Shown: piece by piece, positions 8,701 to 21,409 of the stretch | Layout: each line of letters opens with the position of its first letter | How positions within the stretch are numbered: position 1 is the stretch's first letter | IMG/VR virus record: IMGVR_UViG_3300029263_000579 | Coordinates: 1 to 27,053 of that record | Direction: 5' to 3' (one strand) | Origin: a virus | Length of the DNA stretch: 27,053 bases | The notes under the pieces: model-generated | Databases searched by the model: none | What the model was told of the DNA's origin: nothing | Seen by the model: only the letters and a program-made list of their open reading frames with translations | Position numbers and translations under genes: made by a program

Positions 8701-9277
8701 TTTCAGCCACGAGGCAAATCCTTCTAACGCAAACCATTATGGACCAGGATCTGTATCACCGTTAATTTGTGGTACATATATGGCCGTGTGCGTTGAACCC
8801 GATCAGGAGTCTCCTGATAATACGGACTACTTTGATCGATTCGGTAATCCGTTACCACCCGATGACCGCGAGTCGTTGGCGTTTCATAAATGGGTGATCG
8901 ATCATCCCGATTATCAATACATTGTCGAAGTTTATAGAACTGATGTTTTGGGCGTTAGGAATCTGCACGGTATAATATGCAGCAACAGTAGCAAGGCATT
9001 CCGAGCTGATATTACTGTTGAGAACGAAACCCAATTTCCTAGAAGTATATACTGGCAATGGAGCAGTAATAAGTTCTTAAGTTCTGCTTTCTATAAAGCA
9101 GGTGACGAATTGATAGTGTACATGTTTAATGATAGTAGTGAGTTGACGAATGCCATTACACAGGCTAAAGTAAAGTATGTGGGTGCATTCTCTGGAATTA
9201 ATGATAATGGATCTAACCTAGTCACATTCAATGAGACTTCAGCAATAAACATAGGAATTCCTGATATACCTACTTGA
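5732..9277 (+). CDS. large virion/adhesin protein with DNRLRE-like and Ig-like domains, 1181 aa
   Basis: The start is set by a GGAGA ribosome site. After a basic N-terminus (about 1-30) comes a DNRLRE-like beta-sandwich: NRPCVFFDLSSIPSDAIIEEA near 110-130, TWNYYDSS near 190, and FVFDVTDQVQYGYDTNN near 285-300, which match the FDLSSIP, TWN and DVT-x-x-VQ marks of that family. At least two Ig-like segments follow, one around 350-400 with VTYQWWKES and one around 500-600 with YEFAKDG. The remaining half is Gly/Pro/Asn-rich with no assigned domain. Such proteins usually sit on the virion surface, as fibres, whiskers or capsid decorations, and bind glycans. It lies alone on the + strand among small genes, far from the other structural genes. 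Its stop codon is part of the next promoter. Confidence 0.8.
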   Translation: MRREFNPTLRAASSRKAVKKTIEDIVVDLTLMEGDSTTLYYSGSPLMQTGVVGDPNNQDIIAGDDVPKPSAVFPVLAIGLATDDATTDSGDPSIRPPVGGSIKYNQDAPNRPCVFFDLSSIPSDAIIEEATLELELMEETDPTHNLFLSLFDGPGRSPLPQELPENVWPDSLTLEALNLSRHATPNATWNYYDSSINNSNRWKSIPAEEGTFLPNPIGMMQNTRRSDYPEPSESYDEQRIDPSSDSFPTESYGHIGYGIDGGGFVENYPHTSEDLVVEDSDSTFVFDVTDQVQYGYDTNNKKCNLIVRATNQGPNLAAASPDAQVEIEPVKLDSVHISDTPTGAVLDPPEEEQEQTVHCVLEGLENATEPVTYQWWKESAALEPFGELDVTPAGNVKENGVGLVAVSNAISVGGDPPTNVLQFDWITISPGGVQTTQQISSSTPIRDDVLDSYSIPGDLGNHNLKCVITISNPELEFDEMDIIDFGTISFDLEGVLTVTVTTGPDALEEVVNGNRLQVTSTVTGVVAPTFDYEFAKDGTIIDSQSDVSDLNSGLYDIILPPDVPGNGIYSITTVLKEGGIQVDDKTLTWSYDVEAVPPVSWVEVPEYRSGVYKLKDTPTSPPLLTQPNRWDDSVSEPCLDFPSDIQFSPDFNVDLEVIEVSKCAGDGSFSGKPYLLNNTNTTIAFLAPNGAQSNGATPCPQGLNQFGVALDRYPRLIEGEDIPITVFSKFGFGGEWEAGSGPDGNGLTRPTDMAVWSANGGWRYYVAYSYLCKLVPITVCLTGNIQALNNPSQLNDISLADTEYSNTLGDVNRELNTCSSTFGNDASSTVTGWLQIAGPPLPTEGTDLGETWFFHFRDGWSAGRLGEKGKFEPTDIDSSLHFTGGIPRPTEEMLTSWPNPSDFMTETGGTPSGQSLAMIPEANPLLWNPQSGFDLTYPSHIVHARLGIDPESPNTFNGDPCAGVPTPLLVRESQLTKNESLYGYMKLGDDFSHEANPSNANHYGPGSVSPLICGTYMAVCVEPDQESPDNTDYFDRFGNPLPPDDRESLAFHKWVIDHPDYQYIVEVYRTDVLGVRNLHGIICSNSSKAFRADITVENETQFPRSIYWQWSSNKFLSSAFYKAGDELIVYMFNDSSELTNAITQAKVKYVGAFSGINDNGSNLVTFNETSAINIGIPDIPT

Positions 9278-9301
9278 CATCCGTGAAGTATCGTGTATAA
9301 T
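9274..9301 (+). promoter_or_regulatory. consensus sigma70 promoter for tRNA-Ile (16-bp spacer)
   Basis: Perfect TTGACA (9274-9279) and TATAAT (9296-9301) are separated by 16 bp. The -35 box contains the stop codon of the 1181-aa gene. The expected transcription start, about 9308, is only a few bases before the tRNA, so the tRNA has its own promoter and heads the accessory island. Confidence 0.88.
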
Positions 9302-9314
9302 TACATGAACTGAA

Positions 9315-9387
9315 GCGCCGTGGGAGGAATGGTTTTCTCAGGCCGACTTATAATCGGCCAAACGTGGTTCGAATCCACGACGGCGTA
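9315..9387 (+). tRNA. tRNA-Ile (anticodon UAU)
   Basis: A full cloverleaf can be drawn. Acceptor strands GCGCCGT and ACGGCGT pair with one terminal G-U. The D arm contains TGG. The anticodon stem GCCGA/TCGGC encloses loop CTTATAA with anticodon TAT at 9349-9351. The T arm is CGTGG-TTCGAAT-CCACG, and the discriminator is A. No CCA is encoded. UAU would read AUA, a codon the phage uses but G+C-richer hosts often avoid. The D stem is weak (three pairs), which slightly lowers certainty of the amino-acid call. Confidence 0.85.
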
Positions 9388-11970: not shown

Positions 11971-12570
11971 ATGAAGAATTTTACGATCTATCGTATTGGT
12001 AAAAAAGATGCAAAAGATTTACTTCTTGAATACCATTACTTGAAGGATCATTCCCGTGGATTTAAGAGTGGATATAACTATGGACTCTTTCGAGACGAAA
12101 CAATTTCATCAGAAGGACTTCTTGGGGTATGCATTTTCACAGGATTACCAGTTCCCGAATTGGCACAATCAGCATTCGGGTTACAACGTAATCAGCAGGA
12201 CGGACTTTTCGAACTTAGCAGGTTGTGTCTGCACCCATCCGTCCAAGGAAGTGAAAAAAATCTGGCGTCATGGTTCGTTTCAAGATGTCTGCGAAGGTTG
12301 CGAAAAACAACTATGGTTAGAGCGGTGTTAAGTTATGCTGATGCAGATTACCATGAAGGTACGATCTACAAAGCATCAAATTTTAATTACTATGGTTTGT
12401 CCGATTCAAAGAAAGATTTCTGGATCAAACAAGAAGATGGATCATTCTTAAAGCATAGTAGAGGTAAGATGAGCGGACTCGACGGAGAGTGGCGCCAACG
12501 AAGTAGAAAACACAGATACCTTATGGTCTACGATAAGACTTTGAAGGTACTCTGGAACAAGGAGAACTAA
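11971..12570 (+). CDS. Mom-like DNA-modifying acyltransferase, 199 aa
   Basis: The central block FELSRLCLHP (80-89), then ASWFVSRCLRRLRK (99-112), followed by SYADADYHEGTIYKASNF (121-138) and a C-terminal KHRYLMVYDK (180-189), matches the phage Mu Mom-like family of GNAT-fold proteins. Mom converts adenine in phage DNA to a carbamoylmethyl form that resists host restriction enzymes. The S-Y-A-D...H-x-G-T-I-Y-x-A-S-N-x-x-Y-x-G motif is the strongest mark. The start is forced by position: the ATG is two bases after tRNA-Gly and no other Met occurs for about 100 residues. There is no Shine-Dalgarno, so processing of the tRNA 3' end would leave an almost leaderless message. It is coupled to the next membrane gene with one base between. 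Confidence 0.75.
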   Translation: MKNFTIYRIGKKDAKDLLLEYHYLKDHSRGFKSGYNYGLFRDETISSEGLLGVCIFTGLPVPELAQSAFGLQRNQQDGLFELSRLCLHPSVQGSEKNLASWFVSRCLRRLRKTTMVRAVLSYADADYHEGTIYKASNFNYYGLSDSKKDFWIKQEDGSFLKHSRGKMSGLDGEWRQRSRKHRYLMVYDKTLKVLWNKEN

Positions 12571-12571
12571 A

Positions 12572-12838
12572 ATGTTTCGTAATACTGAAGTTAATACACT
12601 TGGATTTCTTACGGCGTCTGGTGCATTCTATGCACAACAGACCGATCAAGCAAATCTTTTCATGGGTTTGATTATCGCTACTGGAATTATTCTTGTGTAT
12701 CGTTTCCGAAAGGAAACCATCGAGGCACAAAATAATCTTGAAGAGCGTGAACGTGATGCCCGTCACGACGAACTTTGGACTCAGATCAGTAAGATCGAAG
12801 ATCAAGTTCATGATGAAATTTCTAAGATTAGGGATTGA
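12572..12838 (+). CDS. small membrane protein with C-terminal coiled coil, 88 aa
   Basis: The AAGGAG ribosome site lies at the end of the Mom-like gene. After a short N-terminus come one or two hydrophobic stretches (LGFLTASGAFYA, and FMGLIIATGIILVYRF near residues 30-45). A long charged helix then runs to the end (RKETIEAQNNLEERERDARHDELW..., ending EDQVHDEISKIRD). That is an inner-membrane anchor with a cytoplasmic coiled coil. This layout occurs in spanin-like, holin-like and superinfection-related phage proteins, but no family can be named. Its stop TGA forms part of the next -35 box. Confidence 0.6.
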   Translation: MFRNTEVNTLGFLTASGAFYAQQTDQANLFMGLIIATGIILVYRFRKETIEAQNNLEERERDARHDELWTQISKIEDQVHDEISKIRD

Positions 12839-12862
12839 CAAACCCACCACAACGAGTATAAT
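12835..12862 (+). promoter_or_regulatory. consensus sigma70 promoter of the ncRNA (16-bp spacer)
   Basis: Perfect TTGACA (12835-12840) and TATAAT (12857-12862) with a 16-bp spacer. The -35 box overlaps the stop codon of the 88-aa gene. RNA is expected to begin near 12869. What follows is about 330 bp without an open frame, so the promoter serves a non-coding RNA. Confidence 0.9.
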
Positions 12863-12868
12863 ACTCGT
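12852..12868 (+). promoter_or_regulatory. operator-like inverted repeat over the -10 box
   Basis: ACGAGTA and TACTCGT are exact reverse complements separated by TAA. The -10 box sits in the centre, so a dimeric DNA-binding protein here would block or modulate RNA polymerase. The nearby HTH gene is one candidate; this is inference. Confidence 0.55.
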
Positions 12869-13184
12869 ATGACAAGTGAATAAGAAATAATGTGAGGGAG
12901 ACTAATTACCTCCCTTACGGGACTCGCATAACAATCCTCTACGAATGGGGATAGTGCAAACTCCAAATGGTTTAGCGACCTGTCCGTATGATGCAGAAAT
13001 GCTTGTATGAGATGATCCTTAGCGGGATGTGTGGAGTAGTGGAAGCAGATTACTACAGAAATTGTACGTTCGTGCTGCTTCCTTCAGGTATACAATAACC
13101 CTGAGTCCCATATTTTAACACCGCCAGCGGGAGATCCAAGATACGGAGGAGAGTCTTGTGAGCTCCCGTTGGCGGTTTTCTTTT
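12869..13184 (+). ncRNA. structured phage ncRNA, about 315 nt, class unknown
   Basis: No frame longer than a few codons follows the promoter, yet complementary segments nest into one fold. A 9-bp hairpin (12892-12900 with 12910-12918, one G-U) abuts a 7-bp closing stem GGGACTC/GAGTCCC (12919-12925 with 13103-13109). Inside the closing stem are three arms: GCAT/GTGC plus ATCCTC/GGGGAT (12926-12957), ACTCCA/TGGAGT (12960-12965 with 13032-13037), and an 8-bp GGAAGCAG/CTGCTTCC (13041-13048 with 13075-13082). A 13-bp terminator closes the unit. Arms do not cross, giving a four-way junction. It does not look like tmRNA, RNase P or a known phage RNA I can recall. Confidence 0.7.
13121..13184 (+). 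terminator. long-stem intrinsic terminator of the ncRNA
   Basis: CCGCCAGCGGGAG (13121-13133) pairs with CTCCCGTTGGCGG (13163-13175) over 13 bp with one G-U, followed by TTTTCTTTT. The 29-nt loop contains GGAGGAGAG, unusually large for a terminator. The ribosome site of the next gene begins right after the T run. Confidence 0.8.
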
Positions 13185-13196
13185 GAAAGGATATTT

Positions 13197-13355
13197 ATGG
13201 GTGGACAACACGGCGCCGGTAAAGGTGATAAATATAGAAAAGTAGATCTCGATAAGTATCGAGAAAATTATGAAAAGATCTTCGGATCCAAGAAAGGTAA
13301 AAAGAATGAACATTCAGATCGTAAGACTAAACAGCGGCGAAGAGGTAATCGCTGA
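13197..13355 (+). CDS. small basic GKGDKYR protein, 52 aa
   Basis: The start at 13197 follows a GAAAGGA ribosome site; a longer in-frame start at 13158 lies in the terminator stem and is rejected. The product MGGQHGAGKGDKYRKVDLDKYRENYEKIFG, with a lysine/arginine-rich tail, resembles a small protein of T4-like marine phages (typical form MGG-x-H-G-x-GKGD-x-YR). The function is unknown. It overlaps the next gene by 50 bases in another frame. Confidence 0.65.
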   Translation: MGGQHGAGKGDKYRKVDLDKYRENYEKIFGSKKGKKNEHSDRKTKQRRRGNR

Positions 13356-13638
13356 CGTGGGGAGTACGAAAGATGGTAGCGTACCTCGTAATCGACGCAC
13401 TGTAACCCTAAAGAAGCCCGCACTTATCCTTCCAACAGGACAGGGCAGCATTGGATTGATGCCTTGGATGCCCTACGTTGATATCTCAGATGGTATTACT
13501 ATCAAGGAAAGTTTCATTCCTTTTATGGTAAAGCCCCATGACGAACTTATCAACGAATATAATACTGCGTTTGGTAATGGTTTGGTAATTCCTACTAAGC
13601 AGTCTATTAGTGGACCTGCATTGACTCTAACTGAGTAA
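13306..13638 (+). CDS. LSm/Hfq-like small phage protein, 110 aa
   Basis: I start it at the ATG at 13306, behind an AAAGGTAAAAAG site. The segments NIQIVRLNSGEEVIADV (2-18), LKKPALILPTGQGSIGLMPWMPY, and then ELINEYNTAFGNGLVIP match a conserved T4-like cyanophage protein. Its first strand pair resembles the Sm fold (I-V-R-L-x-x-G-E-E-[VI]-I). Such proteins have been described as LSm-like; RNA binding is a plausible but unproven role. Lying just behind a structured RNA gene makes an RNA-related role attractive, though this is inference. Confidence 0.75.
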   Translation: MNIQIVRLNSGEEVIADVGSTKDGSVPRNRRTVTLKKPALILPTGQGSIGLMPWMPYVDISDGITIKESFIPFMVKPHDELINEYNTAFGNGLVIPTKQSISGPALTLTE

Positions 13639-21312: not shown

Positions 21313-21340
21313 TTGACACGGTACGTTATCGTGTTATAAT
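21313..21340 (+). promoter_or_regulatory. consensus sigma70 promoter of gene 32 (16-bp spacer)
   Basis: Perfect TTGACA (21313-21318) and TATAAT (21335-21340) at 16 bp. The sequence ACACG...CGTGT forms an imperfect dyad across the spacer. It starts three bases after the gp33 stop, so gene 32 has its own strong early promoter. Confidence 0.88.
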
Positions 21341-21348
21341 ATACCAAG

Positions 21349-21402
21349 TGTTGGGGAGTTCCCAACAGTATCATTAGTCCGAGGTAGTCCCTCGGGAAAG
21401 GA
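21349..21402 (+). promoter_or_regulatory. structured 5' leader of gene 32, candidate autoregulatory site
   Basis: Two hairpins occupy the leader. The first is TGTTGGG/CCCAACA (21349-21367, 7 bp, 5-nt loop). The second is CCGAGG/CCTCGG (21379-21395, 6 bp), ending just before the AAAGGA ribosome site. T4 gp32 represses its own translation by binding cooperatively from a leader pseudoknot over the ribosome site. The placement here suggests a similar control, but I cannot show a pseudoknot. Confidence 0.55.
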
Positions 21403-21409
21403 AATGCAT

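Follow-up and report, generated by a model that had tools for sequence, protein, structure and literature searches.

Since 2010, the manA RNA has been filed as a cis-regulatory element, probably a riboswitch, and has been tied to sugar, nucleotide and photosynthesis genes. It was reported from marine metagenomes and cyanophages as certainly an RNA, rated "Y" for cis-regulation and "y" for riboswitch, with a drawing that bears the remark "pseudoknot?" (Weinberg 2010; PMC2864571), the strands of which we take to be the loops of helices P4 and P5. The structure was corrected in Rfam 14 (PMC7779021), and the cis-regulatory reading has been repeated in cyanophage papers and a review (PMC9964418, PMC10665884, PMC12197685). 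No functional study of manA was found in the open-access literature searched. Other phage RNAs, RNAC and RNAD, sit in the tRNA cluster of phage T4. These are small RNAs of unknown function (PMC9697503).

Here we address a 358-nt gap (12839-13196) in a stretch of viral DNA of 27,053 nucleotides (IMG/VR record IMGVR_UViG_3300029263_000579), referred to as the window; the features of this locus are on the plus strand. On balance, we judge that the region is probably an RNA gene in its own right, a manA-family member from a divergent clade that scores below the Rfam cut-off, and that its product would act in trans.

Kinship to manA and the clades of relatives

The preliminary description of the region held that it did not resemble tmRNA, RNase P or other familiar phage RNAs. 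This was overturned by the Rfam family manA (RF01745), which matches over its full length (12893-13114, model positions 1-192 of 192; 51.5 bits, E 2e-12), with reciprocal confirmation. As the score lies 3.7 bits below the curated gathering cut-off of 55.2, standard annotation misses the RNA: at the gathering threshold, the Rfam matches in the window are tRNAs only, and in E-value mode manA is the single family appearing for the RNA region. None of 14 loci of the window clade (clade W) reaches the RF01745 cut-off. Compared to the 142-193 bits of manA copies in cultured cyanophages and the 71-88 bits of a further group (group B), the score of the window RNA places its clade on a far branch. In the opposite direction, a covariance model built from clade W alone (R1) retrieves 38 further loci of manA type, drawn from the classical group, group B and L035; nearly all match at full length, with E from 3e-10 to 0.02. 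Of 15 control loci, which represent chance matches to the search pattern, it retrieves none. R1 does not reach the manA copies of cultured cyanophages, which RF01745 does find. With matches both ways, kinship to manA is well supported, while the window RNA is a borderline case for the curated RF01745 family, and is best seen as a divergent manA member, not a new class of RNA. The helix order of manA (P0, P1, P2, P3, P4, P5) recurs in the window clade, with covariation, and the manA 3' core, GGUAUACARUAAYCC, is present in the window as GGUAUACAAUAACCC. BLASTN of the window region against cultured phages found no homologue.

The relatives were gathered by pattern scans of IMG/VR, which, with patterns of 15 bases, yield many chance matches, some of them used as the controls. 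Clade W is represented by 21 distinct RNA sequences that were aligned, L150 and L151 having been added later, outside the alignment; the other groups from the scans are clade C (classical, cyanophage-like) and group B. Within W, a first sub-clade maintains a mean column identity of 89%, despite differing flanks and neighbours. In a second sub-clade (L137, L138, L141, L142, L144, L146, L147 and L149), the GGUAUACA core is replaced or altered with the helix kept, and likewise the GGUAUACARUAAYCC core is lost in members such as L137 and L141, the helix again being kept. Group-B sequence had no match among cultured phages. The exact W-clade pattern was not found in bacterial and archaeal genome contigs, and the classical manA pattern was found there twice, in a single cell of Prochlorococcus and in a contig of a MAG; both matches are true manA, possibly on phage DNA. 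Judged by sequence, then, this is a new, divergent manA clade, carried by marine T4-like phages within their tRNA islands, on contigs without psbA.

Fold and covariation of the RNA

The region had been described as highly structured, and this is borne out by the folding energy of the predicted transcript, -118.4 kcal/mol versus -82.4 kcal/mol (sd 4.6) for shuffles (z -7.8), with 0 of 100 shuffles folding as well. Preservation of the stems in relatives, set beforehand as the test, was assessed in the alignment of the 21 distinct W sequences, by comparing the named structure with shuffles, and compensatory changes do preserve the stems. In the named structure, 93.9% of cells are paired, 27 pairs carry double changes versus 16.0 in shuffles, and double-change cells number 119 versus 36.1; when the 3' partners are slid by 1-3 columns, pairing falls to 40-49%. 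Double-change pairs are present in P0, P2b, P3, 3b, 3c, P4 and P5, while P1, P2a and hairpin 3a do not vary and are thus uninformative. Most helices that vary are, on this alignment, backed by compensatory changes.

The 9-bp hairpin named at the outset corresponds to P0 (12892-12918), with double compensatory changes in 9/9 pairs. The closing stem, P1 (12919-12924 with 13104-13109; 12919-13109 overall), is paired in 21/21 relatives; described as 7 bp, it stands, at 6 bp once G13103 is assigned to P5. The remaining topology had to be redrawn. Instead of three arms, P1 encloses four (P2 to P5), and P3 itself holds three hairpins, so that the proposed four-way junction becomes a five-way junction with a four-way junction nested inside it. 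The P2 arm (12926-12957) consists of 12926-12929 paired with 12954-12957 and of 12934-12939 paired with 12947-12952, with one double-change pair in P2b. The P3 stem (12960-12965 with 13032-13037; 12960-13037 overall) has double changes in 5 of 6 pairs, and encloses hairpins 3a (12969-12980), 3b (12982-13013) and 3c (13015-13028); the loops of 3a and 3c both read UUAGC. P4 (13041-13048 with 13075-13082; 13041-13082 overall) has double changes in 5 of 8 pairs and is paired in only 73.8% of cells, because the shape of the second sub-clade differs. P5 (13085-13088 with 13100-13103; 13085-13103 overall) bears the manA 3' core.

The helices were also said not to cross, and this fails at a pseudoknot (13062-13095) between the P4 loop, UUGUA (13062-13066), and the P5 loop, UACAA (13091-13095), which is paired in 98.1% of cells, with double changes in 3 of 5 pairs in the W alignment, and was paired by RNAalifold unprompted. 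Its versions in W are UUGUA:UACAA, UCGUA:UACGA, CUUAC:GUAAG and AUGUA:UACAU, with CUGUA:UACAG in clade C and CUUUA:UGAAG in P-TIM40; a 5-bp match between the P4 and P5 loops at this place was found nowhere in group B. A free search for any 5-nt match between these loops was rejected as evidence, as 52% of shuffles succeed, and so only position-specific covariation counts for the pseudoknot.

Transcription signals, genomic place and neighbours

The perfect sigma70 promoter of the preliminary description is indeed in place (TTGACA at 12835-12840, a spacer of 16 nt, TATAAT at 12857-12862; 12835-12862 overall, a 12/12 match). Since perfect promoters are habitual in this phage (seven in the whole window), it marks a phage transcription unit and nothing special. 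Its -10 box sits inside a palindrome, CGAGTATAATACTCG (12853-12867), common to W-clade promoters with small variations and possibly an operator. The terminator placed at the end of the gap is likewise found, as a hairpin (13120-13176; -37.7 kcal/mol) followed by the T tract TTTTCTTTT, 13120-13184 overall. The positions of these two signals would define a transcript of about 316 nt (12869-13184), comprising the manA-family RNA and its terminator. At its presumed start lies a conserved element, ATGACAAGTGAATAA (12869-12883), of the form RTGACAAnTGAATAA in most relatives and retained even in some of those without a promoter. The same element also reads as a start-stop mini-frame, Met-Thr-Ser-Glu-stop.

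Scans for promoters (at least 10/12) and terminators were carried out identically on true and dinucleotide-shuffled flanks. Promoters were found in 11/21 W, 10/13 C and 5/12 B loci (expected 0.2, 0.4 and 0.4), and terminators in 14/21 W and 9/12 B loci (expected 1.5 and 0.9), the terminator scan being empty for clade C (0/13, expected 0.3). The hairpin sequences of the W terminators vary while the RNA stays conserved. Inspection by eye also picked out strong hairpins and short T tracts in the W loci L088, L140, L142 and L144, and terminator-like hairpins follow manA in cyanophages P-HM1, MED4-213, S-SSM5 and P-SSM7. In eight distinct group-B loci, the next gene has a promoter-like site of its own 3' of the terminator. 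In cultured cyanophages, a sigma70-like promoter is present between the upstream gene and the manA RNA, and in most of them it overlaps a terminator-like hairpin behind that gene (GAGGGTGCTTGACACCCTCTTTTTTT in P-RSM4 is one example). The 10 of 21 W members lacking a promoter are positioned after a gene or a tRNA and may thus be co-transcribed. In L150 (2357-2450), the promoter region ahead of the W-clade RNA appears to be duplicated in tandem.

Exactly one copy of the RNA is present in 43/43 matching phage records (13 cyanophage, 13 W-clade and 17 group-B), a count in which some records are not independent (G000 and G001 represent one phage, and near-identical contigs occur in group B) and from which fragments or weak second copies could be missing. 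For W, copies were counted with R1, because a whole-record prefilter with RF01745 loses most W members. The neighbours are diverse. In cyanophages, the upstream gene is gp23 in five, regA in two, pstS in two, and ferredoxin or other genes in the rest, while downstream are purL, talC, gp32, a carbamoyltransferase or hypothetical genes, and once a gene on the opposite strand. The W RNAs are located in tRNA islands, with a tRNA gene as the next feature in 5 of 22 distinct loci and various ORFs in the others. The psbA gene, present in both cyanophages searched alongside, was absent from W contigs (up to 142 kb) and B contigs (up to 206 kb), which makes a photosynthesis-gene switch unlikely as the general role of manA.

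A number of other features were observed in these contigs. A gene for a Mom-like DNA modification protein (PHROG 1384, E 2.6e-33) lies inside the tRNA island of the window (11971-12570), and several W loci keep it close to the RNA. A tRNA-Ile (TAT) of unusual sequence, GCGCCGTGGGAGGAATGG..., with its own perfect promoter (9274-9387), was detected in the window by ARAGORN and missed there by Rfam's tRNA model; similar ones are present in L089, L109, L139 and L147. A perfect promoter and a leader, GGGGAGTTCCC...GTCCGAGGTAGTCCCTC, are located ahead of gp32 (21313-21404). Leaders resembling it are present in L141, L142 and L147, and this candidate structured leader recalls the autoregulatory pseudoknot of T4 gene 32. 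One phage contig bearing a W-clade RNA, L079, also encodes a permuted tmRNA (8728-9111, minus strand; RF04321, 74.3 bits).

Downstream of the RNA, the LSm-like gene that was said to follow directly is confirmed as to its fold and corrected as to its position, since a gene for a basic protein of 52 amino acids (GKGDKYR; 13197-13355) intervenes, overlapping the LSm start by about 50 nt. In tblastn over the clade loci, GKGDKYR is directly next to the RNA in four distinct loci and further downstream elsewhere. The second protein (13306-13638; 110 aa, PHROG 527; AlphaFold pLDDT 80) has the Sm/LSm fold and resembles in both fold and sequence an Sm/LSm-like marine metagenome protein, 3by7 (Z 14.5, rmsd 1.1 A over 81 residues; profile E 2.8e-15). 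In the majority of W loci its gene is found downstream of the RNA, as a rule no more than about 2 kb away. No match to it was found in group-B contigs of up to 206 kb, nor in several manA cyanophages, and it was rejected on these grounds as an obligate partner of the RNA. A partnership of the LSm protein and the RNA is possible in W, and would not be required across the family.

Alternative readings and comparison with known systems

With their own promoter and terminator, and often a tRNA or an unrelated gene next, the W-clade manA RNAs look like stand-alone RNA genes, and the relatives suggest that members of the family are often independent RNA genes and not switches before other genes. The main alternative is a terminating riboswitch, in which the manA RNA would serve as aptamer and the hairpin at 13120-13176 as expression platform, together controlling an operon of the 52-aa and LSm-like genes. 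The order of promoter, aptamer, terminator and gene fits such a switch, as do the recurrence of GKGDKYR as the next gene in four distinct loci and the filing of manA as cis-regulatory and probably a riboswitch (Weinberg 2010; PMC2864571). However, P1 and the terminator coexist in the lowest-energy fold, no alternative pairing recurring in relatives was seen, the terminators vary beside a conserved RNA, a tRNA gene is the next feature in the 5 of 22 distinct W loci, and there is one copy per record, with varying neighbours. A location in the 5' UTR of a regulated gene is opposed in W and B by the terminators and the separate downstream promoters. We regard a riboswitch as unlikely at this locus. 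The reading has most force in clade C, where the terminator scan was empty (0/13) and some copies lie a few tens of bases before purL or talC, and could be leaders.

Less probable still is a self-assembling cage or ring, of the kind formed by GOLLD and ROOL, phage tRNA-island RNAs that assemble into RNA-only nanocages (PMC12286853). The window RNA shares with these its tRNA-island setting in phages and its ornate, pseudoknotted fold, but it is much smaller, has no Rfam match to either family, and its repeated loop, UUAGC, is not self-complementary. We give very little credence to a 3'-UTR or processing element that would protect or end upstream mRNAs: manA in cyanophages lies just 3' of gp23, regA or pstS, and promoterless W copies lie close behind a gene, but the sigma70-like promoter separates the upstream gene from the RNA in cultured cyanophages. 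Coding for a small peptide is hardly credible and was rejected, as the single 36-codon frame (MMQKCLYEM...) is broken in 11 of 21 relatives, with mostly nonsynonymous changes (49, versus 20 synonymous, in gap-free relatives), in agreement with the original view of the gap as lacking an open frame, and despite a leaderless AUG-ACA-AGU-GAA-UAA at the RNA start.

Under the preferred reading, of a stand-alone RNA gene, host RNA polymerase with sigma70 would transcribe the RNA from an early-type phage promoter and would stop at the private terminator, after about 316 nt. The RNA would fold into P0 and the five-way junction of P1-P5, with P3 as a nested four-way junction, locked by the P4-P5 kissing pseudoknot. 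It would act in trans, most likely by binding protein, such as host machinery, perhaps with the phage Sm-fold ring as a helper, and the next gene in cis would not be switched by it. The sequences themselves show the family relation, the fold, the single copy in each searched record, and the promoter and terminator signals; expression, early timing and the independence of the transcript are here deduced, and action in trans is suggested by anatomy alone. More tentatively, manA overall may be not a riboswitch but a widespread, single-copy, independently transcribed and trans-acting RNA of marine T4-like phages of different host kinds, perhaps forming an early RNA-protein complex on host machinery. 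The relatives of the window RNA shift the question from which metabolite is sensed to the role of the manA RNA in trans, and the new clade, together with the covarying pseudoknot, offers a better model for the members missed by standard annotation.

Compared to manA as represented in RF01745, the RNAs of the window clade share the 5' hairpin, the order of P1, P2, a branched P3, P4 and P5, the 3' core and the pairing of the P4 and P5 loops. They differ in the arms of P3, in the absence of the internal GUGACUGAAUAA element and the presence of the 5' RTGACAAnTGAATAA, in having their own terminator, in their location in tRNA islands, and in the lack of psbA from their contigs. GOLLD and ROOL are likewise ornate, pseudoknotted phage RNAs near tRNA islands, though much larger and unmatched here in Rfam. 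RNAC and RNAD of T4 are, like the window RNA, small RNAs encoded by a T4-type phage, but they are classed as late, whereas the promoter of the window RNA is of the early type.
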